A stretch of 64,000 bases of DNA from Mesostigma viride (Eukaryota > Streptophyta > Mesostigmatophyceae > Mesostigmatales > Mesostigmataceae), in NCBI GenBank assembly GCA_009746045.1, contig RPFO01000022.1, positions 748,036-812,035 on the forward strand. Reading direction: 5' to 3'. Shown in pieces: positions 7,281 through 53,650 of this stretch. The stretch's first letter is position 1. The number at the start of each line of letters is the position of its first letter. A model generated the notes under the pieces. It was given only the letters and a program-made list of their open reading frames with translations. It had not been told where the DNA came from and did not search any database. The position numbers and the translations under genes are program-made.

Positions 7281-8784
7281 TTTGTTTCAAAAATGCCGAA
7301 AGGAAAACCGGATTGTGCGCCGCAGCTGGAAGCCCACGCACACTACAAGCAGCGCGCGGTTAGCGAAAGCACAGCAGCGAGGTGACGAACTTGATGAACG
7401 AACGTATGGTAATATGTAGTCAACGACGAGAGATATGTTTAGTTAGCCCAGCTCATTGTTTATGGCAATTGGCAGGCAGGCGGGTAAGAACTTAGAACCG
7501 TACAATCTAAGGTTCGCTGGTTTTGACAACAAGCTGTGCTTTAGTTCACACGGAAATGTGCACGTGCCGGACTGCCAAGCGCAACCGCGTGGCAGCATTT
7601 CCGAGCTGGCAGCCTGGCACGCGCTGAGATTTTTTGAGGGCTTCCCAGTTGGCGTCCGGGCCTGTCCGGGTCTCCATTTTTAGCTGGCTCAATACTGTAG
7701 ACTTTGACAAGTGGATTTTCACCCGGCGGCCTGAAGGGGTCATGGCCGCCAGCATCATCAATCGTGCAACAAACGGATGGGGTCACAGTCACCACGTGGC
7801 GCGTGGCGCGTGCCGCGCAATTAGGTACTGTATGTATGTTGTGCGCTATGTATGCTGCCAACCGCTGATGGCCTGTTCCGGTGTTCCCAGCGTTATTTGT
7901 GCAGTCGCACCGGTGATGAGCAGCGATGATTTTTACAAGTAATATATTACTAGTTTGACAAAATATTATCAAGCAGGTTGGGCACGCTTCTGCGAATTCG
8001 TATGCGGTTGTTGGTGCCGCCGAAGCCTGCGGGCTAGTTTGACCATCAGTCATATATTCAGTTTGCGGCAGATACCTAGCACACATACCGAAAATATCTT
8101 AGTGGACGGTCCGCATCCACTTAACCGCGATTGACCAACTCAAGAGGGCCGGTGAGATAATCTTGGTTTTAATTTTGTCGGTGCATGCTTCGTGCTCGAA
8201 CATTTGCGAAAGAATTGGGATGCCTCATCTATGTGACCAGCACCTTCCCGAAGGGCTTGGCACCGGTCCATTCGTTGTGGACCACCCGCGTGCGGCCCAC
8301 GAGCTTGTACGTAGCCTACATGCATAGAAACTTTATTGCCGGCCCTGACGCCAACTCCATTGTTGAATGTAACTCGCATGCCGCCTCTCTGGGGCATGTG
8401 GCATGGTACAGATTGATTGGTGCATTAGTGGATTCATTCACGTGCATCCGTTGGGCGTTGGGCGTTGGGCCATCGGTCTTCATGGGGTACAACTGTTGGG
8501 GTACAACTGTTTGAGTAGGTATCTACGTACGTCTTTCATTCCGGGTATATGCACAGCAAGAAGGGGAAAGACACTATGGGCCGAGCTGCTTTAGAACTCT
8601 CCGTCATTGGAAGGGAAGCTCACCGGGAAGGTCTCATAGCCTGAACTACTACATGGGTCGATCACTGAACAATTATGTGATAGAGTAAGATAGAGCCAAT
8701 TCAGATCAAGCAATATGGCCAGCATGATGACGCGTTTGCACTATTGATAAGGTAATTGACAAGCACTTCTGCGAATGCGTCACG
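7281..8784. other. Upstream of PLAC8 gene; possible unassigned terminal exon
   Basis: No complete gene was found. On the minus strand near 8310-8230, after a GCATGTAG acceptor-like site, a frame reads YKLVGRTRVVHNEWTGAKPF, then GKVLVT-stop. It looks like a real C-terminal exon of an enzyme, but I could not build upstream exons or name the family. The rest is non-coding by eye. Confidence 0.3.
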
Positions 8785-8900
8785 TTGGTACAATAAAGAA
8801 ACTTCAAACCACTATAAACAGTGAGGAGGGAGAGCGCCCATGCAAGCTTCTCTAAATCACTGCCGCAAGCGTGGGCAGGCAACATGTATCAGTATATCGT

Positions 8901-8970
<70 letters not shown>

Positions 8971-9362
8971 TCCTCCCTCTCCTCTCCTCCCTCCCTCCCT
9001 CCCTCCCTCCCTCCCTCCCTCCCTCCTCCCTCCCTCCTCCCTCCCTCCCTCCCTCCCTCCCCCTCCCTCCCTCCCTCCCTCCCTCCCTCCCTCCCTCCCT
9101 CCCTCCCTCCCCCTCCCTCCCTCCCTCCCTCCCTCCCTCCCTCCCTCCCTCCCTCCCTCCCTCCCTCCCTCCCTCCCTCCCTCCCTCCCTCCTCCTCCCT
9201 CCCTCCCTCCCTCCCTCCCTCCCTCCCTCCCTCCCTCCCTCCCTCCCTCCCTCCCTCCCTCCCTCCCTCCCTCCCTCCCTCCCTCCCTCCCTCCTCCCTC
9301 CCTCCCTCCCTCCCTCCCTCCCTCCCTCCCTCCCTCCTCCCTCCCTCCCTCCCTCCCTCCCT

Positions 9363-9457
<95 letters not shown>

Positions 9458-9462
9458 TCTTT
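8901..9462. repeat. Compound (CT)n-(CCCT)n-(CT)n microsatellite
   Basis: CT repeats (about 8905-8966) change to CCCT/CCT units (about 8967-9370) and return to CT (about 9371-9462), giving a symmetric polypyrimidine tract of 560 bp on the plus strand. Such tracts can form triplex DNA. All SLSL, LPPS and EREG frames across it are artefacts of the repeat. Confidence 0.97.
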
Positions 9463-10350
9463 GCATCATGTTGCAGGCCGACCCAACTGGTTTTTGGTGG
9501 TGATACAACGAGAGATACTACCACGGGCATGTCATAGTTGATGATGTGGCCACTTCAGATTAGCTTGTGCAAGGCTGCAGGTGTTTGAATCGATCAACAT
9601 CAATTAGACAACCAGTGCCGGGGGTAAATCTGGAGAATCCATGGCAGCTCGAGCTTGCTCTGCTCACTTATCCCCGTTTGTTGATCCGTTTAGGAAGATG
9701 GAGGTTAATGAATGGCCGGAGGTGGAAATGTGTAGCTGTGTACACACACACATGCGCGCGCGTGTTCAGTGCGTTCGCATGCATACATGTCCATGTATCA
9801 AGGAGACAACCAGCGCAGGCCAGAAACGGAAAAGGAGACAACCAGCGCATGTCCATGTATGTCTTGATCGCACGTACCTCACTTTTATATTGTACATTAA
9901 TTAGAATATAGTGCATATGGCATGGCATGCAGCGTACATGTGCCTAGAGCTTGCTGTATGATTGTGCACACCCACTGCAGCATGTGCAGTGGGCCAGCCT
10001 AGCCATTATGGAGAGAGATCGGTCGGTCCCCATTAGTTGTAGCGCCCGCGGCCGCCATATGCCTGCTATAGTTGCATGCAGCCAGCAGTGAGATTGCGAT
10101 CTAGCTAGAAGCCAGTGTGGAAACGAGCTAGTGAAACCTTTCTTTCCCCTTGAGTGAAATTAAACGACCTTTGTCTCTTTGATATTAGATTGGTTGAATA
10201 TAGTTCGTTTTCGGCTAGGAGGCGTGGCCTTTGCATGACGGGCAAGAGGATTTCAGCCGTGGGCAACCAAGCACACATGTCGTCGGGCTAGTCCGACGAG
10301 TGCGCACGTGAACCGGCACTCCCGGTCACACACGACACCATAGAGATAAT
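9463..10350. other. Intergenic; short dispersed motif
   Basis: No gene seen. The motif AATCTGGAGAATCC with nearby CAGCTCGAGC (about 9628-9655) and CCAGCGCAGGCCAGAAA (about 9819-9836) recurs at 6225-6250 and, inverted, at 16205-16255. It is a short dispersed repeat of unknown origin. Confidence 0.35.
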
Positions 10351-18737: not shown

Positions 18738-19777
18738 CTGGGGGGAGGAACAGGATAGGACAGGACAGGACAAGAGGAGGACAGGACGGGATGAGATACG
18801 AATGGAGGCGAGGCAGCAAGGGCACGGTACGTGATCGGGATGATTTCACCAGTGACGAACCGCGTACGGACACAACACAGCCATGATTACCCACAGACAC
18901 ACACATGCACAAACACACAACCGCACATGCACACACGCACACACACATATACACGCAAACGAAGACAACCAAGAAGAAGACCCCCAACAACAACAAAACA
19001 CGCTGGTCTTTGTACGTCCCAGTGCCTCCCCCAGCCCCCCCCCCATTTCCACCACACTTTCCCCAACCATAAACCCGCCCCCACATGATAAACACATCTG
19101 GGCAGTAGCAGCTGTGTAAACAACTTCAGATCAGGCTGAAAACAAAAATGCTCATATGCATAGGGCATAATACGCCCACATTCCCACCTGGAACCCTGAA
19201 TCCCCCAATGGCCCCATCCCCGCACGGCCCCATCTCCCCCCCCCCCCCCCCAAACCCCCCCCAGCCCCCACCCACCCACCCACCCCCCCACCCCCACCCC
19301 CCACCCCCCAACCCCCCCACCCCACCCCCCCCACCCCCACCCCACCCCCCTTTCCCCCCGCCCCTCCCCCCTCCCCCTGCTCACCCACGTACCAACACCT
19401 GCCCACCCATAAGCGTCCCCTTACCCCCCTGCCAGCCCCATGCCGTCCCCCTACACCTCCTCCTATCCATCCTGCCTAACACCCCACCTCCCCCCATCCA
19501 TCCTGCCTAACACCCCACCTCCCCCATCCATCCCGCCTAACACCCCACCTCCCCCATCCATCCTGCCTAACACCCCACCTCTCCCCATCCATCCTGCCTA
19601 ACACCCCACCTCCCCCATCCATCCTGCCTAACACCCCACCTCTCCCCATCCAGCCAGCCTAATAACCCACCTCCCCCCATCCATCCTGCCCAACACCCCA
19701 TCTCACCCCATCCATTCCGCCTGGCACCCCACCTTCCCTCTTCCCTCCTGCCTTAACCACCCCTACTGCCCACCCAC
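18738..19777 (-). other. RELCH intron with C-rich and 30-bp tandem repeats
   Basis: Intron of 1040 bp between donor GTGGGT (19772-19777) and acceptor CCCCAG (18738 side). It holds a CA-rich tract (18890-18960), a very C-rich tract (19235-19380) and, at about 19440-19735, roughly eight imperfect 29-32-bp units of the type CATCCTGCCTAACACCCC. Reading frames here are G- or P-runs without coding value. Confidence 0.85.
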
Positions 19778-22630
19778 CTGCATGTCCTCGAACGAGCACA
19801 GGAACGCGAACGCGTGCACCAGCTCGGGCGTGCGTGCCTTGTCCCACGCGCCCTCGCGCTGGCTGGACCCCGTGACCAGCTCCCTCAAATACGTGCGCAG
19901 CCGCGGCTGGCCCAGGCACGGCAGCACCGCCGCCAAAAACTGCGGCATGAGGCACATGACCGCGCCGTGCTGCGCCTCGTCATTGATGGGGGCGACCACA
20001 GCGATGGCCGCCAGTAGCGCGTCCGATAGAATAAACGCGTCTGCATGGGCCCCAGCACCCATACCGCCACCGCTGCCGGGATCCACAATCAAATGACCAG
20101 CCGATTTCCCTGAGGCCGCCACGGGCACAGGCGCCACCATTCCCCCGCTGCCGGTGCGACCCAGCGCATGCCCCGTGCTTGCTGCCCCCTCGGCGAGCGC
20201 CCCCCCCCCCATCGCCGCCACGAAGAACGGCCGCATGACGCTCTCGACAAACACCGGCCCAAATGCGTCGCACAGCCCGCGGAACACCTGGCAGAGCCGG
20301 TGGCAGATGCCGTCCTCGCGCGTGTGCACGAGCGATGTGAGCCGCAGCAAGGTGGGCAGGTACTCAAGACAGATCGCGTCCAGCAGCGCACTGGGGGCCA
20401 GCCCCGTCGTGTACGATTCCAACAGCGACTGGAGCGCGAGGAAGTGGGGCGTGGCCGAGGGGGCCGTGGGCGCGGGGGCCGACTCTGCCTGTGAGGACGC
20501 TGTCATCGTCAATGACGTCAGTGCTGCCGAGAGTGACAGCGAGGATGACAACACCGGGTGCACGGCGGGGGCAGCTAGTGTGGTGCCCGCTGACGTCGGT
20601 GCATCGTCGTTTGCTGCGTCAGCGCCGCCCTCGGCCTCCCTGCCAGCCCGTGCCCCGCTGGCTTCCACAGTATTGCTATCCGCCGCACCCTCCACCGCTG
20701 CCACACCCGTCCGGTCCAACCCCTTGCTGCTGTCTTCTTCCAAGGAATCAACCGCCCCACCCACTGCCGCGTCCACGTGTCCCCCATCCCCCCCGCCGTC
20801 TCCCCCCTCCTGCTTCTCTTTCCCCCCCTCAGCCCCCTCGGCCTCGGCCTCCTCCTCATACTCCTCCCCTCGCCGCGCGTACTCGGCCGCGACCACCGCT
20901 GCCCGCAATGGCTTGATGAGCGCCAGCATCATGCGCAGCAGCACGTCCAGGTGCCACCGCTCCCCTTCCCCCAGGCACGCCATCTGTAGCGACCCACCCC
21001 CCCCGACGGCCATGCTCATCTTGGGGCTGGCCTCCACGATCGCATTAACGCGCGCAAGCAGCGACGGCAGGAGCGCCGTGTGCAGCCGCCCGCAGCCGCG
21101 CAGCCACTTTGTGATCGCGGGGAGCAGGTGGGCAAGACAGGTGGCGGCGACGCCGTCGTCCGCGTCCAACGCGAGCGTGAAGCAGAGCGACTCCAGCTGA
21201 GGATACTTGTCCGCGTCGGCCAGCGAGGGGACCAGCCGGCCCAGGTTGCGTGCGGCAGCATCGCGGACGATCGGGGACGCATCCTCGGCGAGCTGCTGCA
21301 GGATGGAAAGCAGGAGGGACTGGCGGATCTCGGGGCGGAGGTACGGCGCCAGGTCACCGCATGCATCGGCGCCGAGGACCCTCCGCTCAGGGTGCTTGTG
21401 GGGGACCTGCTCGACCACGTGCGGCAGCAGCTCCTCCTCGCAGCGCCGCTCGCCCATGGCGCGCGCGAGCGAGGCGAGTCCCTGGGAGATGTGCCGTCGC
21501 TGTTCGGACGAGGGCTTCTTGAGCAAGGAGAAGAGGGTGGCGAGCAGGGCATCGCGCGCGCCTGCGTCGCGGTGGTGCTGCGCGGTGGCCACGATGAGGG
21601 GCAGCAGCTCCTCGCGCTTGTTGAGGAGCACGTTGGGGATGATGCGGGGCAGGCACTCGGCAACGAGCGCGACAGGGAAGCGTGTCAACTGCGGATCCGC
21701 CCCGCCCCCGCCCCCGCTGTTATTCTTGCGCACACCCGCGCCCTCACACGACTCACAGGGGTCGAGTGCGCTGTTGGATGCGCGCGCACGCAGGCCAGAA
21801 AGCTCGCTCTCAGCCGCGTCTAGTGCCGACCGGAGCGCCGCCATCTCCTCCTCCTGGGAGGCACGGATCGCTTCCAGGGATGTTGCGGAATCAGTGGCAG
21901 CCGCCAGCTGTTCCTGCGCGGATTTCAGCTCGGCGGCCAGCCGGTCGCGCTCCTCGAGAAGCTCCGCATTCACCTCAGCGGCCGCGATAGATGACTTGTG
22001 GAGGCGATAGTAACGCGCGAGCGCGTGGGGGACCCTGGTGCCCCCAGGCCACTGGTCCAGGTTGCTCCCGCTCTCGTCGCACATCGTCATCGCAGTCAGC
22101 CGCAGACCTTGCTGCACAAGAAAGTCCTTGACCGCACAGCTCAGCTCCGAGATCTCCAGCTGCGTCAGCGGCTTCTCGCGGATGGATGCGGCCGCCGGGT
22201 CGTCCTCGTCGGTGCCGTTCGGGGCCTGCTCCGCGCCGGGGGCGGACCCGCTGTCGATGAACGTCGCGCGCTCGAGGTCCTCGGCCTGCTTCTCGAGCTT
22301 TGCGGTCAGATCCGCGATGTCCTCTCGAGCCAAGCGCAGGTCATACTCGACGACGCCTAGCTTCTGCGCCAGCGCTTCCTTCTCCCTGACCACTTTCTGC
22401 CTGGCATATTCCTCGGATGCCTCAAACTTGCGGACTTCGTCGGGCGGGAACTTGTTAACATCAGAGAAATATCGACGCAGCCGTTGTAGAGCTTCGGCTG
22501 CCACGGTGCCTTCTTCCCCGCGCTCAATAAGCTCGTGCATGAGCTCAAATGCCGTGAGATCCGCATTGTGCTCCAACAGAAATGTGGCCACGCCATTCCA
22601 ACCCCCACCAGGGCCCGCGGCGCTGACCAT
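19778..22630 (-). CDS. RELCH-like LisH/HEAT protein, exon 1 (N-terminal)
   Basis: Start ATG at 22628-22630; 951 residues before the donor. A first LisH (FLLEHNADLTAFELMHELI, about 18-36) is followed by a coiled coil (about 80-120). A second LisH-like segment (LSCAVKDFLVQQGLRLTAM, then DESGSNLDQW) matches the RELCH/KIAA1468 pattern. A second coiled coil follows (residues about 210-270), then HEAT repeats from about 310: RIIPNVLLNKREELLPLI, EELLPHVVEQVPHKHPERRV, ACGDLAPYLRPEIRQSLL. An acidic, low-complexity insertion occupies about 600-720. With exon 2 the protein is 1300 residues, near animal RELCH (about 1200). Predicted role: endosome to Golgi lipid or sterol traffic. Confidence 0.88.
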
Positions 22631-29558: not shown

Positions 29559-30174
29559 AGTTGTATGAGAGTTTAACCCCGAGGGAATCCATGGCTCTTG
29601 CAGGAAAGTTGCCTTTATTATAATAAGCAAACACAGACGTAAGTCACGTCAAGTCCGAGACTGCACGTAGCACAGACGACAGGGTCGTTTTGCCAAGAGA
29701 GCGTGCACGCAAGAGCTAGCGTCCCGGTGCGACCAAGTCACACATATAGCTTGCTAGGGACGCGTCCAAGTATTCAGCTGCACTGTCACAGCTGAACTGT
29801 CAATCAATTGATTACACAGACTCTGGCACGCCTTTGGCGCGCAGATCTATCAATTGTTCATACGGCTAGTCCTGTGGACCTATCCGTACACTACTCAGCA
29901 TCAATTGTCTCATAGGTCCTGGCGCGCTACAGCACGCCTACCTATCAATTGACCATCAAGTCCTGTACAAGTCCTGTCAACGTCCTGCGGACTATCAAAG
30001 TGACACTTGTACATCCTGTGTCCGTACGCGCCCACAGTGGCGCGCCGGGTACTGTCGGCACAGCCTAGGAAACGTCATAACTTTTACGTTCCTTAACCAA
30101 ATGAGGCGTTCAAGGTGCCGTTGGAAAGAGCGTAACAATCTCTATCCATCTAACGTAAATCCTTTACGTTAACT
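29559..30174 (-). repeat. 3' LTR
   Basis: 616 bp. On plus it begins AGTTGTATGAGAG and ends CCTTTACGTTAACT, giving AGTT/AACT inverted ends rather than TG/CA. It is nearly identical to 36797-37422. The other LTR has an extra GATAGGTC-type duplication (about 37154) and CTGT (about 37283). Confidence 0.93.
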
Positions 30175-36796: not shown

Positions 36797-37422
36797 AGTT
36801 GTATGAGAGTTTAACCCCGAGGGAATCCATGGCTCTTGCAGGAAAGTTGCCTTTATTATAATAAGCAAACACAGACGTAAGTCACGTCAAGTCCGAGACT
36901 GCACGTAGCACAGACGACAGGGTCGTTTTGCCAAGAGAGCGTGCACGCAAGAGCTAGCGTCCCGGTGCGACCAAGTCACACATATAGCTTGCTAGGGACG
37001 CGTCCTAGTATTCAGCTGCACTGTCACAGCTGAACTGTCAATCAATTGATTACACAGACTCTGGCACGCCTTTGGCGCGCAGATCTATCAATTGTTCATA
37101 CAGCTAGTCCTGTGGACCTATCCGTACACTACTCAGCATCAATTGTCTCATAGGTGATAGGTCCTGGCGCGCTACAGCACGCCTACCTACCAATTGACCA
37201 TCAAGTCCTGTACAAGTCCTGTCAACGTCCTGCGGACTATCAAAGTGACACTTGTACATCCTGTGTCCGTACGCGCCCACAGCTGTGGCGCGCCGGGAAC
37301 TGTCGGCACAGCCTAGGAAACGTCATAACTTTTACGTCCCATAACCAAATGAGGTGTTCAAGGTGCCGTTGGAAAGAGCGTAACAATCTCTATCCATCTA
37401 ACGTAAATCCTTTACGTTAACT
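36797..37422 (-). repeat. 5' LTR
   Basis: 626 bp, partner of 29559-30174, in the same orientation. Just inside it (minus strand CGTATTACAATCTTCG) I see no standard initiator-tRNA primer-binding site, so priming may use another tRNA or an internal tRNA region. Confidence 0.93.
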
Positions 37423-40080: not shown

Positions 40081-43000
40081 GCGCGGGTGCGGCCGTGCCC
40101 GCCATCTTGCACGATGTGCTCGAGCTTGCGGGCATCCCCCATGTCTGGCACCCTGCTGGTCCGCGCCGCCGTCTTCTCTCCGCCGATGAGATCGCCCGAC
40201 TGCCGAGCTGGGAGCTGGGGTGGGACGCGGCGCCCGCCCACTACGGGCCGGCCCACTTGGTGGATGTCACTGCCAGCGGCCCCTCCTGCCCCATCTGCTT
40301 GGACCTGCCTCGCCCTGGTGACGGTCTCTGCCGCCTCCCTGCTTGCGGCCACGTCTTCCATCAAGCTTGCATCGCCACGAGCTTGCACACGACCTCCGCC
40401 ACCTGCCCCCTTTGCCGGGCCGCGGTCCTTTCCCCCTTGCCTCCTGGCGTTCTCCCGCTGGGGCCCTCGCCCGTGTCCGTGCGCCGCCAGTCCCACGCGC
40501 CTGCCCCGACACCTGCCTCCCCTGTGCGTGGTCGTGGGTCGCGCGCCGGCTTGGCTGCCTCCTCCAGCGCCCCCCTCCCGGCCGTGGGGGCCGTCCCCGC
40601 GCCGGTCTTGTCCTCGGCTGCCACGAGCCCTGCTGACCGCCCGGCGGCCGGCCCCGCCCTGGGTTCCGCTGCAGCTGTAGTTCCTCTGGCTGAGGGTGCT
40701 CCCGACCCCTCCCCCTCTCGACCCGGGCCGGCCCAACCGGGTGGGCGCACCCCCTCAGATGGCTTCCATTATTGCCAAGTCGATGGTCCCCTTGGTGACC
40801 CGTGTGGCGCGCGCCTGCCCAACCGGAATTCGTTGCTGGTGCACATTCGGGCTTCCCACCCCCACATCACGGAGGCCGCCATGCGCGCCATGGACTGCTA
40901 CCGCTGCCCGGCAGCCCATTGCCAGCGGATTTTTTCGATCCACGGGCGGTACCAGCATGAGCGGCAGTGCCGCCGCCAAACCCCCCAGAACGGCCTGCCC
41001 GGCGGCCCGGCGGCCGCACCGGCCTCCCGGTCCGGGGCGGCCCCTCGGTCGGCCCCTGCCCCTCCACCGGCATCGCAGGGTACGAGCGATCCGGGGGACC
41101 TCTCGGCAGGCTGGGCATTCCTGGCCACGCTCCCTTTTGCCGCCTGTGCGCGCAACCCTTGCATGACGCTCCCGGACGTCCCTCACCGCGCCCGGAGCTT
41201 GTTTACGCGCTGCGCCCTGCTTTCCCTGGCCCGGATGCATAGTCACCCTCTCGACGAACTCGGCCACAAGCTGTTTCTCGTCACCCCCCGGCTCCTCTTA
41301 GCGCCGTTGGAGCGGGGCGTGCGTGGCGTACAGGGTGCGGTCATCGCTCGCTGCCGGCGGTTCCTCCTCGGGGATTGGGAAGGGCTGTGGGCGCTGCAGC
41401 CTCCGGCCTCCACCCGGGTGTCGGGGGCCGCCTCCTTTGCCCGGGTGGAAGCTGACGTCATGCGGTTGGTGAAGGTAGGTGAATTGAGCCGGGCCATGCA
41501 AAAGCTTGAACTGACCGCGTTGGCTCCCTCCACTCCCCCGACCCTGCAGGCTTTGCGCGACCTTCACCCCGACGAACCGGCCTTTGCGGTGCCCGCCCCG
41601 GCCACCCCCCCGCCCCCGCCTATTGTCCTGGACCTGGACATCTTCACGGCTGTGCTGAAGGATCTGCCGAACGCCTCCTCCACCGGCCCCTCAGGCTGGC
41701 GCTACGAGCACCTCTCCGTGATGGCGGGCCATGGCGGGGCGACCGCACTCTTTGAGGCTGCCGCCGACTTGGCCGCGGGGTCCCTGGCCCCCGCGGCGCG
41801 CCCTTGGCTGGCTGGGGCACGCCTCATTGCCCTCCTGAAAGACGACGTCCCCCCGCCTGCTGGCCGCGTTCGTCCCATTGCTTGCGGCGAGGTCCTACGC
41901 AAGCTGGTGAGTAAGGTCATTTGTCGCCAAAAGGCCCCCGAGTTTCGCGCCTACTTCTGCCCCAACCGGAGTGATACTGAGGAGTCCGTCGCGGCCCAGC
42001 TTGGCGTCGCCACCAAAGGGGGCAGCGACATCATCGTGCACACAGTTCAGGCCTACCTCGAGACGCATCCGACCCATGTGGCGCTGAAGGTGGATTGCCA
42101 CAATGCGTTCAATGCTGTCACCAAGGCTAGCATCTTTGAGGCCGTCGGCGAGGCGTTCCCTGACCTTCTTGCGTGGACAGCAGCCTGCTACGGCGAACCC
42201 ACTCAACTCTCCTTCCTCATGGAGGATGGGACGTTCGCCGACATCGCTTCCCGCACGGGAACCCAGCAAGGTGACCCCCTCGGCCCCTTTTACCTGTCTG
42301 CCCCGCTGCACAAGGCTCTCCAAGGTGTCCACGCTGCGCACCCGGATGTCGTGCTCCTCGCCTACATGGACGATATCCATGCCCTTGGCCCGGCCGACGC
42401 TGTGGTTGCCGCCCTGGCTGCCCTTGAAGTGGCCATGGCGGCCATCAACCTTCGGCTCACCCTCCCCAAGTGTGCAGTCTTTTCGCCCCAGGGGGACTGC
42501 TCTGGCTTCCCCGCGGCTATCCCGGGGGCATTGGCGCGGGCGCGTGGTTTCTCGTGCCTGGGCGTCCCTGTGGGTGACCCTGACTACGTCGAAGAGGAGC
42601 TCCGGGCCACCGTGGAACAGCGCACCCATGTCCTTGAGACTTGGGCGCGCCTCAAGGACCCCCAGACCAAAGGGCTCCTCCTGTGGTTTTGCGCCCACCC
42701 GCGGGTGGTTCACTGGCTCCGTGGCGCTCCCCCCCACTTGGTGCGGCTTGCCGCGGAAGGCCATGACGAGCGCATTCAGGCCGCCTTGCAGGTGCTCCTC
42801 CCCGGCCCTAGCCTGCCAGCTCACTCCATGCGCTTGGCCACCCTCCCCTGCCGCATGGGCGGGTGTGGGCTCACCCGCGCCGCCCGCCTCGCCCCCGCCG
42901 CCTTCCTTGGCTCTGTTGCTCAGGCCTGGGCGGAGATCCGCCGGTTGGTCCCCAGCGCCGTCAGCGCCATTCCCGACTTGGTCACCCCATCCCCCTTCCC

Positions 43001-44015
43001 CTTTGTGCAGGCTGTGCAGGATTCTTACCTCGGGATCCAGCAGGCTTGCGACCTCGTCCGCCCCGCTCAGGCCGTCCACCGTCGCCTGCCCCGGGGCACG
43101 CCCGGCGTGTCCACTGTCGTCAGTCCTAGTGTCTTCCCTGCCTGCGTTCATGAAAAACAACAAAAGACCTACGCGGGTATACTACACTGTGCCGACTGGA
43201 TGGGTCTGCATGCGAGCTTGAACGATCAGGGGAAGGCTTGGCTTCACTCCGTTTCCCTTGAGGGGAGCGTGGGGTCCGCATTCCTGCGCGCCCTCCCCAT
43301 GAGCCCTTTGTTCACACTGGTTCCGGCCCTTTACGCCATCGCTCTCCGCCACCAGCTCTTTGCCCCGCAACCTCTCATCACGGCGGGTGCGTCCTGCGGC
43401 AGCTGCGGGCTTGCTCTGGATACTACTGGGACGCACTACATCGCGTGCATGGGTGGCCAGCAGAACCAGAACTGGTTCCTCTATCTCCATACCGCTCTCC
43501 TCCGGGTGGTGTGTGCCATGGTTCGGTCGGTCTTTCCCCACTCCACCATTAAGTGCGAGGACGCGGATGGGGCCGCCCTCTACTCACCCAACCACCGCCC
43601 CGACATTACCGTGCTTGACTACGACGGGCAGGGTTGCCACCTGCTCATCGATGTCTCCGTGGCTCGGCCGCTTTCCGGTCGCCACATCCTCCGGGCGGCT
43701 GTGGATGCCGGCGCTGCTGCCGCTGTGGCTGAGCGCGACAAGTTTGCCTCCTACGGCAATGTGGGGCCCCACCGGGTCATCCCCTTTGTCCTTGAGGAGT
43801 TCGGGGCCATGGGCCCCAAGACAGCGGAGTTTTTCCACGAGTGCTGCCAGCGCCGTGAAGACCGCCTCGACCTCGAGGGTCAGACCGCCCCGTGGTCGGC
43901 CCGCACGTGGTCCTCGTATTGGCGGCAGCGTCTGTCACTCGCCCTCACTCGCACCGTGGCTGATGTGTTATTCCGCCGCACCCGGGCCGACTTTGTCGCG
44001 ACCCACGCGGTCTAG
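40081..44015 (+). CDS. R2-like LINE: RING, C2H2 fingers, RT and restriction-like endonuclease
   Basis: About 1306 residues counted from 40095. A RING-H2 finger: CPIC (65-68), C84, H86, H89, C92, CPLC (104-107). Two C2H2-like fingers: CQVDGPLGDPC with H-x5-H, and CPAAHCQRIF with H and C (about 215-295). RT: TGPSGWRYEHL (about 530), KVDCHNAFNAV (motif A, about 665), GTQQGDPLGPFYL (motif B), LAYMDDIHALG (motif C, about 757). Near the C-terminus come CGSCG with H-x3-C (a CCHC) and the endonuclease NHRPDITVLDYDGQGCHLLI-D (about 1175). This matches R2-superfamily elements, with RING as an added, potentially E3-ligase, domain. Confidence 0.92.
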
Positions 44016-44390: not shown

Positions 44391-46215
44391 CCATTGTGAG
44401 GTAGCCATGGCTGACGGCGGAGCTCATGACTTTTACGTTTAGGCACCAAATTCGGCCGTGAAATTATATCACAATCGCTTCGTCTTTCTAAGACGCGCAT
44501 GCTGATATAATTTTCCGAAGCTATTGCGCAATATATGACGAGCAAACACTCATTGCAGCCTGGCGGCTGCGCTAAGCCCTGAAAATACGTCTGCAGCTCC
44601 GGCGCTGCAGCTTCGCCCTCAGGTCCCGAATTAAGGCAGCAGTGACATCAGTTAGTCGCGCACTGGTGGTTATAGGCCCAGCCCCGGCCCGGGCTTGCCT
44701 CGCCCTCTGCATCGCCTGATGAGCCCAATTAAGCGCAGTCGCTCTGCCGAGCCGCACTGGTCCTCGACGAGATCGCCTTTGAAATCAACGCACCTGGCTA
44801 CTGGACTCGAACCCCGGGAGCCTTCATGGAAGATGTGTTTTTCGGCGCACGCGCACGCCTCGCTTGTAGCCCTGTGCTCGCACCTCATATCCCACTGTCA
44901 AGTAAGTATAAGTAAGTAAGTACTTGCGTGTCATGCGCAAAGGCCATGCATGCCACGGACTACTATGCTAATCTCATTAGAAAAATAATCACACAAAAGT
45001 TTAAACAAATATCGTCTGCATCATCCCCCAATTAACCGTTAAGCGCTAGATGGGGATGTAATCCTCATCCGCGATATCCCACAACCGCGGCCGCTGACCC
45101 AAGGGCCTTCCTGGCACCGCCGATGATCTCCAGATTATTCCCATCATGAAACGCCGGCCCCGGCTCCAACGCTTCGCCCTCTTCTCCCTCCTCGGGCGCT
45201 CCGACGCCGAGATCTGGCCCCCCCCTCCCACCGTTGCGACAGAATCCATCGTCCACACCCTCCTTAATAAAGGAAGCTTTTGAGCAACACCGGTGACCCC
45301 CCTTGCTGCCGATCAGATCATGGCGACAATGAGCGGCCAAGCTGGCTGCTACTAAGCTCCCTCACCTGTCCACCACCGTCACCTCCACCTCCACCCTCCT
45401 CGCCTCCACCGCCACCGCCACCTCCACCTCCACCGCCAGACATGCAAGGCCCAGCTCCTCGACATCGACCAGCGCCTCAAGGACACCGCCATCGCCATCG
45501 AGTGCATGCAGAACACCGCAGGCATCACCGCCCAGGCTGTGAAGGACATTGCCGCCAAGCCAGCCCCCGCTGGCCCAGGCGGCGATCGACGCCCCTCCAG
45601 CCACCCAGCCCTGGGCGGACCTGCTCAAGCACCACGCCACCTCCACCACCTCCACCATCGCGGCACAGCTTAAGCAACAAGCCCTCGACCTCCGCGAGGA
45701 GGCCGACCGCACCCCGGCGCAGCCACAATTAGTGTCATCGTCATGCAAGCACTTCTACCATGCAGCCGGCAGTCTGATGAGACCTCGACGACTCTTCTCA
45801 CGGCATTTAAGCGCGACATATTTCTTGCCCCCATGCACATCACTGGTGATTGAGCTGCGGATGTCGGCTGCCCGCCTTTCCCGCGTGCGGGGTAAGGCTG
45901 GCCCGGCACCCCTGCGCTCAGGACTCACCTTTAAGTACATGGCGCGGACAAGCTGTTGTTTCTTTAAAATTAACCACAAGAAGCTCTTGAGGATTCGCTA
46001 CACGCTGGACGACGACCTGACCCTGGCCCATGGCAACAACGGCGACGCGATCGGCTATATGGCCGACCTACCTCTGGACAGCTCGATCCGGCACAGCGCA
46101 GCTAGGGGGGAAACCGGTATACTGCATGGCGGGGGGGCGTCATCCACGTCGACCACAAGCCCTGGCAGGCACCCCCTGCCAACCCAGTTTAGGGAATATA
46201 GCGGTAGTGTAGATT
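44391..46215 (+). pseudogene. Decayed ORF1-only retroposon, third family (copy A)
   Basis: Starts with the common leader AGGTAGCCATGGCTGACGGC (also at 49655 and, inverted, at 63080). It continues through broken ORF1-type coding sequence: the LDQRLKD-like region near 45450-45500 and TLDDDLTLAHGNNG near 46000-46030. It is interrupted at 44896-45073 by an SSDEDYIPI-family end. Copy B is 49627-51600. The pair align almost base for base apart from scattered 4-base insertions. Confidence 0.7.
44896..45073 (-). mobile_element. SSDEDYIPI-family 3' end inserted in copy A
   Basis: A 178-bp insertion with a 9-bp target duplication ATATCCCAC (44887-44895, 45074-45082). On the minus strand it encodes the last DEDYIPI codons, then a UTR and a CTTACTTA-type tail (GTAAGTATAAGTAAGTAAG on plus, near 44902-44922). 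The empty site is seen in copy B (50160-50172, CTCATCTCCCACAACTGC). Confidence 0.85.
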
Positions 46216-46429
46216 AGTAAGGCTTAGCCTACCACGCGGCCCACTGACGCGCATGTACGTGCGCCCATAATGCATGGCCATGGATGATGCCTTAAGAGTT
46301 TAGCCACGCCCTGCCTATAATGGGACCCCCCATGGATGATGCATTATTAAGAATTTAGCTCAGCCCTGCCTATGCAGAGAGTAAAAATATCATCCTATAA
46401 TAACATGCATCCACTATCATTTGCCGTAC

Positions 46430-48916
46430 ACGAAAATGGCTGACGGCGGTATGGCTGACGGCGGAGTTCAGATCTTTTGCGTATGAGCCCCAAATTCGGT
46501 CCTGAAGCAGACCACTTGCATTCGATGCGCCTTTTAATTTAAGACGCACTCGCCAGTATAATCGGTTACGGCTGAAAGGCAGTATCGACTCCAAGCAGCA
46601 CCTGACAAGCAGCTATGACGACACCAAAAGCAAAACGGGGTATAATAATATGGAAAGGAGCTTTCCGGCTCCCATGCAGCCCAACCCACTTGCCATCGCC
46701 CTTGCCCAATCGACTGGGCCCGCAAACCCACCGCGCCAGCAAACCCATCGCCAAGCGCCTCGCCAGAGCCCAAGAAATTCTGCTACCAATCAGACACTGA
46801 TGGCGACAGTACCTAGACTACGCATGCTTTACGGTCAGCGTCTGCATGGCTGCGACTGACAGACGCACAATTAATGCACCGAGATAGTGCATTAATTACT
46901 ACGCACGGGAACACAAGCTCCGTGCCAGGGCCCGATGGGCCCATTCCCGCCGACAAGGTGGAGGCGTTCCTCGCCCCGCATGCATGCCAGAGTTCAACCA
47001 TCGCCTCGATCGCCATCCTCTTCAGCTTCTACAAGCTCACTGCACGTGAACTCGACGCTCGATCGGCTCCGCAACCCATGCAGCCCGGCCTGCGCAGCCG
47101 GCAGCCACACCGGCTGCCTCGATCCCTCTGCAAGGATGACCTCCGAGCAGTGCTGGAGGAGCATGTGACCTGCATGGCCGCTGGCCGAGAAGATGACATT
47201 GATGACTACAGCGCGCTCAACACGGTGGAGGCCTTTAATAGGGTCTCCAATACGGAAACCAAGGTCGCACACAAGCTACAACCTCAGCTCACGGCGCTGC
47301 AGACCATGCACGGCGCAGGCATCCGAGGCACATGCTGCACTCCTCAGACTCCCACCTCAACCAGGTGGAGGGGGAGTGCGGCGCACGTGCTCATGTTCAT
47401 CAATTAAGAAGCTTGAAGCCGTCACCGCCCGGCGCACCGAGGCCCTGGCCATGTACACAGGTCCCAAAGATAGCGGAGCAGACGGCCACCATCGCATCCC
47501 ATGCAGCCACCCCGGCGCGGCAGGATGCTGGCAACCTCCCGCCGCTCTCCTATGCGGACCTGCTGCGGTCAGCGACCGCCTCAACCACCGACGCCATCGA
47601 TCGCCACGAAGCTCCAGGAGCTGGAGGACCACCGCCAGGCCGAACAACGGGAGGCCACCGACCGCGCTCGCCGCGAGTGCCGAGTGGTGCTGCGTCGTTT
47701 CCCCCAGAAGCCATGCAGGTGAGACGTCAACCACCCTTAATTGCCGACGAGCTCAAGGACCAGCTTCTCTGACAGTGACCCTCACGGGCCTGCATGGTAT
47801 AGGTGAGGTAGAACTGCGCGGGTGCCACCGCCTTCCCCACTCACGGTCCGACAAGGCGGCAGCCTCCCCCACCATGCAGTCCTGCTCACCTTCCCCTCCC
47901 CTGAGGACAAGCGGTGGTTCCTTTCTCGTTGCAAGAGGTTGCACGACCTCAACTGGACGCTGGACGACGACCTTCAACCCCCGATTACTTGCCCACGCTC
48001 CTTGCTATGATATGCTCACATGGGTCTTATTGCACCCACAGTTTGCCGGATCGTTAGCCTGTCCTTTTAGCTAGCCGCGCCCGATTGCAGCTGTGGCATG
48101 CCTTTGGCATGAAGGAGACTGGGGGTCTCTGCCCTTTCTCCTGTAGTGCACACACAGGGATTAAAAGCACTTCGGTGCTCCGTGACTCCCCAACGGGAGC
48201 ACGAGTTTAATTAATTAATTAATTAATTAATTCAACCCCCGCTCAGCAGCAGCAGCGACGCGACCTGTGGCCGAAATACCTCCGCCACAAGCAGGACCCC
48301 CAGAAGCCCATATGAGGTGTATTGGAGGGGCGTGGACCTGATGATGAACCACAAGACAGGTATACGTGGACGCCCCGGCCCTGCGGGCTAGAATACTGCT
48401 TGAACAGCCCTAGCTTGTATCCATTGGTAGTCACTGCCGCCATGCATGGCAGCCATGCATGGCAGCCATGCCTGGAATGTTTGCCTTATAGTATGTAGCT
48501 GTGCCACCATACCTAGTGGCACGTACGTACGTACGTGCACCGCTATAACACTACACTGTACACAACCAGCCATAGCCTCAGCTGAGCCCTAATTGTACAG
48601 CCATGCTACGTACGTCCTGGCAGTATGATCAGCTTTAAACTTGCCCGGCCACGCTATTTGTTATTGATGATATGCTCACAACATGGGTCTTATTGCACCC
48701 ACAGCACTTGCCGGATCGTCTATGTCGTGTCCGATTGCCGCTGTACGTACGTGGCATGCCTCTGCATGGCATGAAGGAGAAAGGGGGTCTCTGCCGTGTC
48801 TTCCTGTTGTGCACATCCAGGGATCAAAAGCACTTCGGTGCTCCGTGACTCCCCATGTGCAACGGGAGCACGAGTTTAATTAATTAATTAATTAATTAAT
48901 CAATTAATTAACTAAT
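46430..48916 (+). pseudogene. Decayed ORF1-only retroposon (copy E), heavily hit by 4-base insertions
   Basis: The leader ATGGCTGACGGCGG begins near 46436. ORF1-type coding sequence homologous to 11896-10758 runs from about 46900 to 48390, with the C-terminal CAGCAGCAGCGACGCGACCT part resuming after a nested insertion (47984-48230). The 3' UTR ends in GACTCCCC...CGGGAGCACGAG and a TTAATTAA tail (48876-48916). At least eight clean XY-rc(XY)-XY insertions relative to 10758-11896 shift its frame. Confidence 0.8.
47984..48230 (+). mobile_element. 3'-end-only retroposon insertion with TTAA tail
   Basis: 247 bp flanked by an 11-bp target duplication TTCAACCCCCG (47973-47983, 48231-48241). It holds only the 3' UTR of the ORF1-only family, including GGATTAAAAGCACTTCGGTG, the terminal hairpin and a TTTAATTAATT tail. 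This shows that the TTAA run is part of the inserted copy and that the terminal hairpin region suffices for retroposition. Confidence 0.88.
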
Positions 48917-48970
48917 TAATGAATTATTTACTACAGAGAGTCACTCTCTGATGATCGAGTGAGAAGCCAT

Positions 48971-49023
48971 TAATTAATTAATTAATTAATTAGACTCGTG
49001 CTCCCGTTGGGGAGTCACGGAGC
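48971..49023 (-). mobile_element. 53-bp retroposon 3'-end insertion
   Basis: A 17-bp target duplication, ATCGAGTGAGAAGCCAT (48954-48970 and 49024-49040), brackets just the tail TAATTAATTAATTAATTAAT and the terminal hairpin CTCCCGTTGGGGAGTCACGG with a few flanking bases. It is an extreme 5' truncation and marks the hairpin plus tail as the minimal unit retained. Confidence 0.85.
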
Positions 49024-49034
49024 ATCGAGTGAGA

Positions 49035-49260
49035 AGCCATGCCCTAGCCTTTGTATAGCCATGATGATCTTCCACCCCATGACGGGCATAATAATCGGGC
49101 TCTGATATATAGATCGTGGTGGTGCAGGTGCCCTTGCTGCATGCACCTATAGAGCAAGTGTCGTTTACATCCCCACCCTTGCAGGAAGTAGCCCAGAATG
49201 TATTAAAAGCCATATGCCCCTTCTCCGGGATATGTGCTACATATACTCCCAATTCGTTAC
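49035..49260 (+). repeat. Dispersed retroposon 3'-end repeat, second copy
   Basis: Aligns with 38195-38470 (see there). It ends near CTCCCAATTCGTTACGGAG, a version of the CTCCCAACGGAG hairpin with extra bases, followed by an AATTAATTAAT tail. Confidence 0.6.
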
Positions 49261-49626
49261 GGAGTTATAGTGTTCCTAATTAATTAATTTTAATTGATTA
49301 ATAATCATTTCCCTTGCTAGCTGATGGATGGAGGTGAGTGCAAAGCCGCGAAACCCTTAAAGTTGTACTCTAAGCTAATTTAGAAAATCCTAACTACTGT
49401 AGATACTAAGAAAAGCGCCCCTTCAGCTAGGACTCCTGGGGGGGGGGGGGGGGGGTGCCCATGCACAGCAGGGGCTGGCGGCCGGCGTGTGGGCCTGCAC
49501 AATGGTCTGCCACCTCTTCTTGTTCTGTAGATATATATACATGTCGCAGTCCAAGCAAGAGAGAGGGAGGAAATGCTGTGTTCAAACTGGGCTGGGAACA
49601 CTAGGTCGGCCAGCAATAAACTGCTG
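49261..49626 (-). pseudogene. RTE-like LINE 3' coding fragment
   Basis: Antisense copy of the C-terminal codons (CACCTCTTCTTGTTCTG, CAGTCCAAGCAAGAGAGAGG, GTTCAAACTGGGCTGGGA, ACTAGGTCGGCCAGCAA) matching 57370-57500. A (G)17 run at about 49439-49455 and a TATATATA insert at 49531-49539 interrupt it. Confidence 0.65.
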
Positions 49627-51600
49627 TGTATATAGTACGACTGAGTCACGAGCCACGAGGTAGCCATGGCTGACGCCCGAGCTCATAACTTTCATGTTTG
49701 GGCACCGAATTCGGCTGTGAATATCACAAATTATCACTTCGTCTTTCTAAGACGCACACACACACACACACACAAATTTCCGAAGCTGTTATGCGCAATA
49801 TATGACGAGCAAACGCTCATCTACGCAACGCAGCTTAATTGGGGGCTGCACGTTCGGGCACTGAAAATACGTCTGCAGCTCCGGCTGCAGCTTCGCCATC
49901 AGGTCCGGAAGGCAGCGGTGACAGTAGGCGCGCACTGGTGATTGCCCGGCCGGCCATGCAGCCGCCCCCCCGGGCTTGCCTCGCCCTCGATGCATCGCCT
50001 GTCAGAGCCCAAGCGCAGTCGCCCTGCCGAGCCTCACTGGGACGATCGAGATCGGCTTCGACATCAACGCATATGGCTTCTGGAATCGAGGCCCAGGAGC
50101 CTTCATGGAAGACGTGTTTTTCGGCACGCACGCCTCGCTGGTAGCCCTGTGCTCGCACCTCATCTCCCACAACTGCGGCCGCTGGCCAAACGGCATGAGT
50201 GCCCTGCAACCCCGCCGAAGATCTCCCGCGCATCCTCCGCTCGAATCGCCCCCGGCTTCAGCGCTTCGCCCTCTGCTCCCTCCTCGGGCGTTCCGACGCC
50301 GAGATCGATTTGCCCGGCTCCCCCTCCAACCGTCGCGACAGAAACCATCGTCCGCACCCTCCTTAAGGAAGCTTTCGAGCAGCACGTCGGACCCCCCTTG
50401 CCATGCACAGATGCATGTATAGGCGCCAGCGGGCCTCATGGTCGGCGCGGACCTGGACGTCATATTGGCGTCAGCGCTTGTCGGTGGCGCTGACTCGGGC
50501 CATGGCTGACATCATGCTCCGCCGTACGCGGGCTGATTTTGCGGTGCAGCAGGGCTATTAGGTTCCTCCCGTTAGGAGTTTCCATTGGTTTTATCGTAGT
50601 ATAGAGATTTGACATGGCTCTGTATAGAGGTTTATAGCTGGGCGTTTGCTTTGGTTTGAGTGATTTCACTCTGCTGTAAGTAATTATATTATTATAATGT
50701 ATAGTGTGGCGGCAATGGGACTCAGGCACGCTGGCTGCTGAGCTCCCTCACATTTCCACCACCGTCATGCACCTCCACCTCCACCCTCCTCGCCTCCACC
50801 TCCACCGCCACTTCGATCCACATACCTCCATCGCCGCCCTCAAGGCCCAGCTCCTCGACATCGACCAGCGCCTCAAAGACGTACACCGCCATCGCCATCG
50901 AGTGCATGCAGAACACCGCAGGCATCACCGCCCAGGCGGTGAAGCCCATTAATTGCCGGCCGCCAAGCCAGCCCCCGCTGGCCCAACCGGCGATGCCCCT
51001 CCCGGCCACCCAAACCCATGCCGGCGGACCTGCTCAAGCACCACGCCACCTCCACCACCTCTACCATCGCGGCACAGCTTAATTAAGCAACAAGCCCTCG
51101 ACCTCCGCGAGGAGGCCGACCGCACCCAGCGCAGCCACAGTGTCATCGTCAAGCATGCACTTCGACCAGCCTTCAAAGATGAGACCTCGACGACTCTTCT
51201 CACGGCATTTAAGCGCGACATATTTCTTGCCCCCATATGCACATGATCCCTGGTGAGCTGCGGATGTCGATCGGCTGCCCGCCTTCCCCGCGCGCGGGGT
51301 AAGGCTGGCCCGGCAGCCTCCCCTGCTCCTCACTTTTATTAGGTACATGGCGGACAAAGTGTTGTTTCTTAATTATAAACCTCAAGAAGCTCTCAGTCGA
51401 GGACTCGCTTCACGCTGGACGACGACCTGACCCTGGCCCATGCAGCAACAACGGCGACGCGAGCTATGGCCGACCTATGTACCTTCAGCTCCGGCAATTA
51501 AGCGCAGGGGGGAAACCGGTATACTGGCGGGGGGACGTCATCTGCACGTCGACCACAAGCCTTGGCAGGCACCCCCAGTCTAGTGGCTAGCCAGCTCTGG
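49627..51600 (+). pseudogene. Decayed ORF1-only retroposon, third family (copy B)
   Basis: The leader CGAGCCACGAGGTAGCCATG (49645-49664) matches the 5' end of the complete element at 63125. ORF1-type sequence follows but with many frame breaks. It is split by an R2-like LINE end (50423-50696). Compared with copy A (44391-46215) it carries 4-base palindromic insertions at other positions. Mutual comparison therefore shows which copy is ancestral at each site. Confidence 0.7.
50423..50696 (+). mobile_element. 274-bp R2-like LINE 3' end
   Basis: Flanked by an 8-bp duplication ATGTATAG (50415-50422, 50697-50704). It is nearly identical to 28168-28441, sharing GGTCGGCGCGGACCTGGACG, the QQGY-stop codons and the 3' UTR. 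Its target again contains TATAG. Confidence 0.88.
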
Positions 51601-51700
51601 GATATGTGCTACATATACTCCCAACGGAGTTATGTTCCTAATTAATTAATTAATATAGTTCATGATATACAGTACAAGCGCTCACTCTTCGCTATGTACT
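51601..51700 (+). repeat. RTE-like 3' hairpin and TTAA tail
   Basis: TATGTGCTACATATACTCCC followed by AACGGAGTTATG gives the stem ACTCC-CAAC-GGAGT with an AATTAATTAATTAAT tail. It is a third version of the LINE 3' hairpin, with a covarying base pair relative to 57653-57666. Confidence 0.6.
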
Positions 51701-51714
51701 CGCCGCATTGTGAA

Positions 51715-52400
51715 AGAACTGCACTGCCTCCAACCTCGTGAGTCCCCTCTGCACCGGCCTTGTGCTGGTGGACTTCATCCAAGCCTTCGATTCGGTTCTC
51801 TGGTCTGCGCTGTCTGTGGGACATCCTCGCTCTGTTCGATCCGGATCCACCTCCACCTTATTGCTGTCATCCGCAACCTGCATGAAGGGTCCACCACCTC
51901 GGTGCGCACTTCCTACGGGTCCACGCCACCATGCCTTCTACAGAAGGGTGTGCATGTGGCAGGGCTGCGTGCTCTCGTCATACCTGCTCATTATTGTGGT
52001 TGAATTTAGGTAATGCCTTCAGGCGCGCAAGATGTTTGCTCGCATGCATTGTGGGTACGGAACCAGGGGTTAAGGTTGCCAACAAATTCTGGCATGGCAG
52101 GGCGAACACGGAGATTCGGTTAGCGGAAATCATCTATGCTGACGACACCACCCTCAGATTTCGAGGACACTGAGCACGTGCAGCTAGACGTGGCTTGACT
52201 GCCGGCCTCGCAATCGAGGCGCCCGAGCGGAGTGGTGGCCGGCTCGAGGTCAGCAAGAAGACAGAAGCCCTGGCGGTTGGGCTCACGCAGCAACGGCCCC
52301 CCGATCTTTTCCTCCTTCAGATGGCTCTCGCGTCCAGGATAGGGACGTACCGGGTCAAGTTTCTGGGTAGCAGCTTACTCCCCAGCTAGGCGTCAGGCCG
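51715..52400 (+). pseudogene. Decayed RTE-like LINE RT fragment
   Basis: LVLVDFIQAFDSVLWSAL (motif A, near 51770), MWQGCVLSSYLLIIVVEF (near 51955), LAEIIYADDTTLRF (motif C, near 52125) and SKKTEALAVGL (near 52250) follow the order of the intact LINE. Frames are broken and the copy is dead. Confidence 0.85.
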
Positions 52401-52429
52401 ATGTGGACCATGCACGTACCGTATCTCCC

Positions 52430-52650
52430 TCGCCTCAGTGGCCCGACTACATCCGCCACAAGCCCCAACCCCGAGAAGCCCCAAGTGTACTGCATGGCGG
52501 GGCGGGGACCTTTATGTCAACAAGAAACTGTGGAAGCCCCCCCGGGCTCCCCCGGGATAGAGCACTCAAGCTAGCTAGTTGTCTAGATGCATGGGGGCAA
52601 TCGATTATGGGATAGCTTCGGCATTACAGCCTTGAAATGATATTAGCGCC
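52430..52650 (+). pseudogene. ORF1-type C-terminal fragment
   Basis: Matches the end of the 61504-62952 protein gene and its UTR (CAGTGGCCCGACTACATCCG, GTCAACAAGAAACTGTGGAA, GGGGGCAATCGAT). It carries palindromic insertions at 52491-52496 (TGCATG), 52570-52577 (AGCTAGCT) and 52588-52593 (TGCATG). Confidence 0.75.
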
Positions 52651-52664
52651 CAGAGAATGAATTA

Positions 52665-53345
52665 ATTAGGAACATATCTCCGTTAAATTAAATTAAAACT
52701 CCCCTACTCAGCAAAACGCCTCTTCCCCTTGGGGGGAGGGGGCTTGCCCACAGGGGCTGGCGTGTGAGCCAGGACAATCTTCTGCCACCTCTTCTTGTTC
52801 TGCATGCGTAGAGCAGTCCAAAGAAGAGAGAGGCAGTGAATTCATGCGGTGTTCAAACTGGGCTGGGACCACTCGGTCGCCCAGCAACATCTGGATGTAG
52901 TTCATGGCAGGTTTACGGGCTAGCTTCCTGGGAGTGTCCTTGGGGCCAGGCCAGGTCGTTCAGGATGTGCCGCCCTGGTTGGCCAAGCCGCTCGGGGCCG
53001 GCCAGACCAAGGGCGGTGTCGACCTGACTGGTGCGAGCAAGATGTCCTACAAATGCTATCCTATGCTGCCTAATATCGTCCGAAATGCGAGGCATACCCT
53101 GGTACAAAGACTCTAATGACCTATGCTTAGAAACCACTACATTCAGGACCTGTCGGAGCATCCTATAAACCGTGCCGTGGAGCTTGGCCGCCAGTGTGTC
53201 CGTGAGTGTCCATGCCCCGGCGCCATATACGTAAGCACCGTGAGGACGAGGACCTTGAAGAGCATGCGCAACCGGTGCTCGCCCAGCGCCCCTTCGAGTG
53301 CCAGTAGGTGTTGAGCGAACGAAGCCTGGCCCAGACCAGGCCGAT
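52665..53345 (-). pseudogene. RTE-like LINE 3' third, antisense
   Basis: The minus-strand frame (52913-53340) reads AWTLTDTLAAKLHGTVYRML, LYQGMPRISDDIRQHRIAFV, GHLARTSQVDTALGLAGPER, close to residues 395-500 of the intact second frame at 55852-57549. The 3' hairpin and an AAATTAAATTAAA tail lie at the left end (52685-52700). It is 5'-truncated. Confidence 0.85.
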
Positions 53346-53399
53346 GGGGATTGGGAGTATGCGGGTTGGGAGTATATGTAGCACATATATCCCGGAGAA

Positions 53400-53650
53400 T
53401 TAAGGGCATATGCTAGCTGTACATGTGCCATACCTAGCCACGTGCACCGCCAACACACGGTACACCACAAGCCATAGCCTTACATAGCTTTACTTCCTTG
53501 TACAGCCATGCTACGTCCTGGCTATGCTCATATTACTTGCCCACGCTCCTTGTTATGATATGCTCACGTACATGGGTCTTATTGCACCCACGGATCTTGC
53601 CGGGCCGTTTATCGCCGGGTCCGATTGCAGCTGTGGCATGCCTCTTTAAG
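53400..53650 (+). repeat. 3' UTR piece of ORF1-only retroposon
   Basis: Aligned with 10480-10700 (inverted) and 48540-48770: AGCCATGCTACGTCCTGGC, TGCCCACGCTCCTTG, TATGATATGCTCAC and GGGTCTTATTGCACCCAC. A GTAC insertion lies at 53566-53571 (CTCAC to CTCACGTAC). Confidence 0.7.

Follow-up and report, generated by a model that had tools for sequence, protein, structure and literature searches.

Small insertions in most genomes are regarded as slippage or plain duplications. Repeat copies in a 64,000-nucleotide stretch of the genome of Mesostigma viride (contig RPFO01000022.1, positions 748,036 to 812,035, or G000:C777:748036-812035; hereafter the window), an alga of the earliest-diverging streptophyte clade, carry 4-bp insertions in which a dinucleotide XY becomes XY-rc(XY)-XY, where rc denotes the reverse complement. 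The question is whether this palindrome-making signature, noted by eye in an original prediction, is real and what could produce it. It was addressed mainly with family F1, the repeat around 50425-51500 of the window, and the signature proved to be real and far beyond chance. All insertions were read from the assembled sequence of one strain, in repeat copies, and the genome searched comprised 439,911,974 bases in 2243 contigs; the NIES-296 assembly is reported at 441,847,188 bp, with 2,558,729 as its scaffold N50 (PMC6947507), and another strain, CCAC 1140, is reported to have its own genome sequence (PMC7027972).

Thirty genome copies of F1, the best 30 of 44 listed places and no random sample, were aligned to their own majority consensus. 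Two of them lie inside the window, on the + strand, at 44391..46217 (part of locus L010) and 49657..51576 (in locus L001). Both carry many insertions of this kind; a further insertion, 178 bp long and with an overlap of 9 bases (target duplication), splits the first. Insertions were kept if they had at most two mismatches per 8-base flank and a consensus position below 1900. Over 44,244 aligned bases with 5.0% substitutions, the copies hold 579 filtered insertions versus 144 deletions, the latter being filtered by position only. The commonest insertion length is 4 bp (230 of 579), compared with only five 4-bp deletions. F1 is called retrotransposon-like only because of its ragged 5' ends and its TTAA-repeat tail; no Pfam match (E up to 0.1) was found in four open reading frame (ORF) pieces of F1 copies and one just beyond.

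The form XY-rc(XY)-XY accounts exactly for 118 of the 230 4-bp insertions, against 12, 31 and 4 for the reversed, complemented and direct controls; the complement control is raised because XX steps (e.g. CC) have a complement identical to their reverse complement. With the same inserts shuffled among sites, 18.1 would be expected to fit. The excess of rc(XY)XY foreseen in the original prediction is thus confirmed, while the chance level of 1/256 assumed there was slightly low (about 1% by random inserts), which leaves the outcome unaffected. In the 30-copy F1 core, 78 of 136 4-bp insertions have the form, whereas random inserts at those sites give 1.4. The commonest insertion length of F1 is mostly set, base by base, by its site.

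Outside F1, alignments had to span 120 bases or more at 85% identity or above, and gaps were kept if they had no more than one mismatch per flank. The tandem arrays at 700-2400 and 8700-9700, F1 itself and locus L036 (G000:C1106:6000001-6010000), the entire stretch of which is N, were left out. In this set 69 of 143 4-bp gaps have the same form (reversed 11 and direct 5, the two controls used here), a count that is pairwise and unpolarised, in which inherited events may recur and a few gaps are double-counted via shifted alignments (e.g. in L035). At 98% identity or above, four of the five 4-bp insertions in non-F1 alignments fit, and some events are therefore recent. T4-like phages taken as an outside control were uninformative, as no 4-bp gap passed the filters in eight stretches.

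Each insertion was modelled as a left flank, forward bases, a reverse-complement core, forward bases and a right flank. Described in this way, XY-rc(XY)-XY is the main case of a wider law with a net gain of 4: the product consists of the first two bases, the reverse complement of a k-base core and the last two bases, with k = 2, 3 or 4. The products read AB-B'A'-AB at k = 2, aD-b'D'a'-Db (aD-rc(aDb)-Db) at k = 3 and AB-D'C'B'A'-CD (AB-rc(ABCD)-CD) at k = 4. At least one such insertion (k = 2 to 4) is present in all 30 F1 copies, at about 4 per kb. The law covers 264 of the 373 pooled 4-bp insertions (187 at k = 2, 37 at k = 3 and 40 at k = 4), and the products are symmetric about a single axis. 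Without the k = 2 events, the 37 cases at k = 3 compare with 10, 8 and 2 for the reversed, complemented and direct controls, and the 40 at k = 4 with 5, 5 and 3. No excess was found at k = 1 once k = 2 events were removed (11 versus controls of 10 and 10), nor for cores of k = 5 to 10 over control. The k = 3 and k = 4 relatives and the fixed net length, like the site preference described below, were absent from the original prediction. A fixed target duplication was considered and is ruled out, the duplicated bases numbering 2, 1 and 0 at core lengths of 2, 3 and 4.

Seven further F1 copies (7 of 10 further listed places) were fetched once the law was fixed. In these held-out copies the law is obeyed by 39 of 57 4-bp insertions (reversed 3, complemented 8, direct 1), and k = 2 alone accounts for 26 of the 57 (reversed 2, complemented 6, direct 1). 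Shuffling the held-out inserts among sites 500 times gave a mean of 5.9 and a maximum of 13, and random inserts gave a mean of 1.6.

The behaviour of self-complementary dinucleotides is a telling detail. TA, AT, CG and GC make up 24% of the dinucleotides in the window, and they occur at one of 107 distinct F1 k = 2 sites and in two of 155 pooled, filtered k = 2 products; the pooled set excludes microsatellite-like sites and those whose register is ambiguous. The held-out copies add one further case, ATAT beside AT. Self-complementary units are found in 56 of 61 non-microsatellite 2-bp tandem duplications (XYXY), and in nine of 11 such duplications in the held-out copies, where no microsatellite filter was applied. 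A product of XYXY at these steps would be expected because XY-rc(XY) tails can there anneal by 4 bases, not 2. Of all the evidence, this exception probably speaks most strongly for a break with two ends that carry complementary tails.

The k = 2 sites show a preference. A C lies 5' of the core (or a G 3' of it) at 100 of 214 half-sites of F1 at k = 2, where a fraction of 0.30 is expected (p = 7e-7). The rates per step are 0.16 for TA, 0.15 for CA/TG, 0.10 for GA/TC and 0.08 for AA/TT and are lowest for GC, at 0.03 (XYXY products being included for the self-complementary steps). A C next to the cut and a short 5' overhang, as deduced here from the products, would be features in common with Spo11 and topoisomerase II. 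Yeast Spo11 is reported to make symmetric breaks with a 2-nt 5' overhang and to prefer a C at -2, immediately 5' of the cut, but to show little bias in the central dinucleotide, while mouse SPO11 differs in favouring GNATNC (PMC11922745); Top2 is described as leaving a 4-nt overhang and favouring C 5' of the scissile bond (PMC6813358). Unlike those of yeast Spo11, the algal sites favour CA/TG/TA steps at the core. SPO11 is among the genes reported in the Mesostigma genome (PMC6947507), and the resemblance of the algal scar to Spo11 cleavage (a 2-nt 5' overhang after C) may serve as a lead only.

The reading that we favour, with a probability of about one half, is a mutational process in M. viride whose scar of +4 bp has the form x1x2 - rc(core) - x(k-1)x(k) and arises through break-and-tail joining; the break geometry and the joining steps are deduced from the product. 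A symmetric double-strand break would leave a 5' overhang of k bases, two (or three or four), and fill-in would add two bases at each 3' end. Each 3' end would then gain the reverse complement of the whole overhang, either by closure of a hairpin and its nicking at the original cut position, in the manner of palindromic (P) nucleotides, or by copying the partner's 5' overhang as far as it extends. The complementary tails would anneal by k bases and be sealed, for a gain of 4; at a self-complementary XY the tails would anneal by 4 bases and only two bases would be gained. The lack of an excess at k = 1 would be expected, because a 2-base fill-in calls for an overhang of at least two bases. The original prediction had proposed hairpin-end addition in two rounds. 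The hairpin idea is a good fit, if an unproven one, but the two rounds are unneeded, as one 2-nt palindromic tail per end, mutually annealed, yields the product. At a greater stretch, and with considerable doubt, a system dedicated to making breaks and palindromes, perhaps a mutator directed at repeats, might place the +4-bp palindromic scars in this genome, where they would be the most frequent small insertions.

Several observations weigh against break-and-tail joining as a complete account. The 2-base fill-in is constant whatever the value of k, for which the model gives no reason, and 109 of the 373 pooled 4-bp insertions lie outside the law. The C/G flank trend in F1 has the same direction at k = 3 (p = 0.11) and k = 4 (p = 0.05) and is not significant; the C preference at XYXY sites is likewise not significant (p = 0.18) and is absent from the pooled XYXY set, and the C/G context is not significant in the 2- and 3-bp classes tested. 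A single process for all classes is thus unproven, because the context is significant only at k = 2. In the raw scan, with no exclusion, k = 3 shows no excess (15 versus 17 for the complement control), whereas k = 1 reaches 19 versus 6 for the reversed control. Plain replacement of XY by rc(XY), the product of zero fill-in, was found in seven of 113 isolated dinucleotide changes, against 16 for the reversed control. One-mismatch, that is aged, k = 2 forms number 33, barely higher than the controls of 24, 25 and 17, and more diverged copies do not have a higher rate (Spearman -0.43, p = 0.019), perhaps as a result of picking copies by alignment score.

Insertions of other lengths add something to the picture. 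Among 2-bp non-tandem gaps, 92 of 137 fit with fewer fill-in bases (reversed 22, complemented 67, direct 19), as do 64 of 89 3-bp gaps (reversed 18, complemented 50, direct 14); these products are weaker evidence because the complement control is high. On the 1-base scale, X-rc(X)-X is not enriched except beside a complement. The 30 F1 copies also have 17 shared insertion sites, in 20 copy pairs, most of which are not clearly closer than average, and most shared sites look like recurrent hits at favoured steps.

A similar known product is found in V(D)J recombination. In human T-cell receptor joints the P nucleotides are reported to be mostly 2 nt long, which is tied to the opening of hairpins by Artemis mainly 2 nt from the tip (PMC3528771). 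The likeness lies in short self-complementary additions, mostly of 2 nt, at joined ends (PMC3528771); the difference is that in the alga they are scattered over repeats, that a net gain of 4 dominates and that a single shared P segment lies between the XY copies. As with P nucleotides, what is added reverse-complements the adjacent end in the 187 of 373 insertions with k = 2, where it directly follows the copied end; at k = 4 the order AB-D'C'B'A'-CD would need an unfilled 2-nt hairpin loop. No description of the signature was recognised among the papers that searches of the open-licence PubMed Central literature listed. Palindromic tails at ends are known from V(D)J joints, and the +4 law as the main 4-bp class of repeats is, as far as we have seen, new.

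Two rival mechanisms would also place a reverse complement between forward copies. In a very short there-and-back template switch, a polymerase would switch strands, copy 2-4 bases and return. The product can be described by four points, and the four-point model of template-switch mutations likewise has a reverse-complement copy of a neighbouring sequence between forward copies (PMC7954356). Fold-back events appear to occur in this genome, since a 95-bp insertion in L020 (at about 1204-1300 of the oriented locus) is, by eye, a larger fold-back that repeats its left flank in inverted orientation. Free switching, however, predicts variable lengths, whereas a net gain of 4 dominates here, the core is confined to 2-4 bases and cores above 4 are at control level. 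By our own reckoning it also predicts the same product at self-complementary sites, namely XYXYXY, whereas mainly XYXY was found; the switch points are symmetric, and the one-axis symmetry of the products suits two equal ends. The 2-base strand switching suggested in the original prediction matches the geometry and fails at the self-complementary cases, and we regard template switching as unlikely. The second rival is excision of a DNA transposon that duplicates 2 bp of its target and whose flanks close into hairpins; palindromic bases with a copy of XY on either side are a familiar look of such scars. The footprints of hAT and Tc1/mariner elements are likewise small insertions in which target bases are duplicated and palindromic ones at times occur. 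At TA, a handful of 4-bp insertions outside the law read TATGTA or TACATA (in L001, L011, L014 and L023) and resemble the Tc1 footprint. The algal additions are, in contrast, set by the target. At k = 2, 3 and 4 alike, the reverse complement that is added spans the whole core and the net gain stays at 4, which is unexpected of excision, where footprint bases would presumably be independent of the length of the target site. All 30 F1 copies are scarred, and no element with a matching 2-bp target duplication was found among ten large-insertion junctions in the 30 F1 loci, a small sample with raw alignment overlaps of 4-16 bases at seven (one of them the L020 fold-back) and gaps at three. Transposon footprints suit the data less well than break-and-tail joining, and we consider them decidedly unlikely.

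Errors of sequencing or assembly would have to follow the same law, and flanking bases dictate the inserted bases in a way not expected of base-calling errors. Loci L013 and L027, on different contigs, share one insertion, as they do 65% of their derived substitutions, and the window holds ORFs of 955, 1018 and 1306 aa, which are unlikely given about 4 false insertions per kb. The assembly is moreover reported to combine PacBio, Illumina and optical-map data (PMC6947507), and an artefact seems very improbable. Ordinary slippage or duplication indels selected by eye would explain some 2- and 3-bp gaps, which are indeed plain duplications; given the systematic calling with several kinds of control and the held-out copies, this explanation of the 4-bp class is close to negligible.

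Because the 4-bp insertions are mostly dictated by their site, the scar may preserve how long the overhang and the fill-in were and how the ends were joined, so that end-joining chemistry could be read from a genome sequence. Should repeats be its target, the process would amount to a genome-defence mutator of a new kind, one that frameshifts repeats; repeat-induced point mutation (RIP) mutates repeats in fungi. Should it be general, it would be a steady source of frameshifts and of genome growth. In Mesostigma, 7570 pseudogenes are reported to have frameshifts, premature stops or both (PMC6947507), and a link between these and the insertion process would be speculation.

Within the window, a strict caller finds 43 insertions that obey the broader law (36 at k = 2, five at k = 3 and two at k = 4). 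This is a lower bound, as those at 44629, 44727, 50044, 47304, 47499 and 47873 are missed and all are visible in alignments. Of 17 events listed in the original prediction, 15 match their description when re-read in the sequence and alignments. The remaining two are less clean. At 47791 there is an insertion, but it is best aligned as one of 6 bp. The other is the k = 2 product AGCTAG at 52569..52574, which is in the strict count but has a substitution in the adjoining flank and was classed as 'other' by one caller.

The products listed here are all on the + strand and, unless stated otherwise, have k = 2. The F1 copy at 44391..46217 contains AATTAA at 44629..44634 and 44727..44732, CATGCA at 45759..45764, AGCTAG at 46100..46105 and TGCATG at 46123..46128, together with the k = 4 product TCTGGACA at 46073..46080 (core TCCA, TC-TGGA-CA). 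In the repeat copy termed copy E, TCGATC is found at 47119..47124 and 47597..47602, TGCATG at 47171..47176, CATGCA at 47712..47717 and TTAATT at 47737..47742. The second F1 copy has GATCGA at 50044..50049, CATGCA at 50766..50771, 51154..51159 and 51439..51444, CCGGCC at 51002..51007, TTAATT at 51079..51084 and TCGATC at 51267..51272, with k = 3 products GACTCAG at 50719..50725 (core GAG, GA-CTC-AG) and GCAGCCT at 51313..51319 (core GCT, GC-AGC-CT). ACGTAC at 50879..50884 is as originally described, with an adjoining substitution that places it outside the strict count. TTAATT and CCGGCC at 50949..50961 are aligned as a single 8-bp gap, yet read as the two neighbouring events first proposed. 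A second k = 4 product, GAATTCAT, lies at 52838..52845.

Other features of the window were recorded in passing. No Rfam match was found in it at gathering thresholds. A direct pair at 29559-30174 and 36797-37422, about 620 bp long and 97% identical, flanks an RVT_2 frame and is probably a Copia-like long terminal repeat (LTR) pair. Seven substitutions separate its two copies, along with a tandem duplication of 7 bp and an insertion of 3 bp; this last obeys the law with a fill-in of 2+1, and there is no 4-bp gap between the copies. The 1306-aa open frame at 40095-44015 combines a RING finger with a reverse transcriptase domain, and the better of the two relatives found is a Closterium protein with 28% identity. 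The stretches 780-1800 and 8900-9540 hold a long array of the tetranucleotide (GGAT)n as well as (CT)n/(CCCT)n arrays. The HEAT-repeat ORF at 19766-22630, on the - strand, matches a protein of Mesostigma viride (EukProt Mesvir1) with 100% identity across 955 aa.

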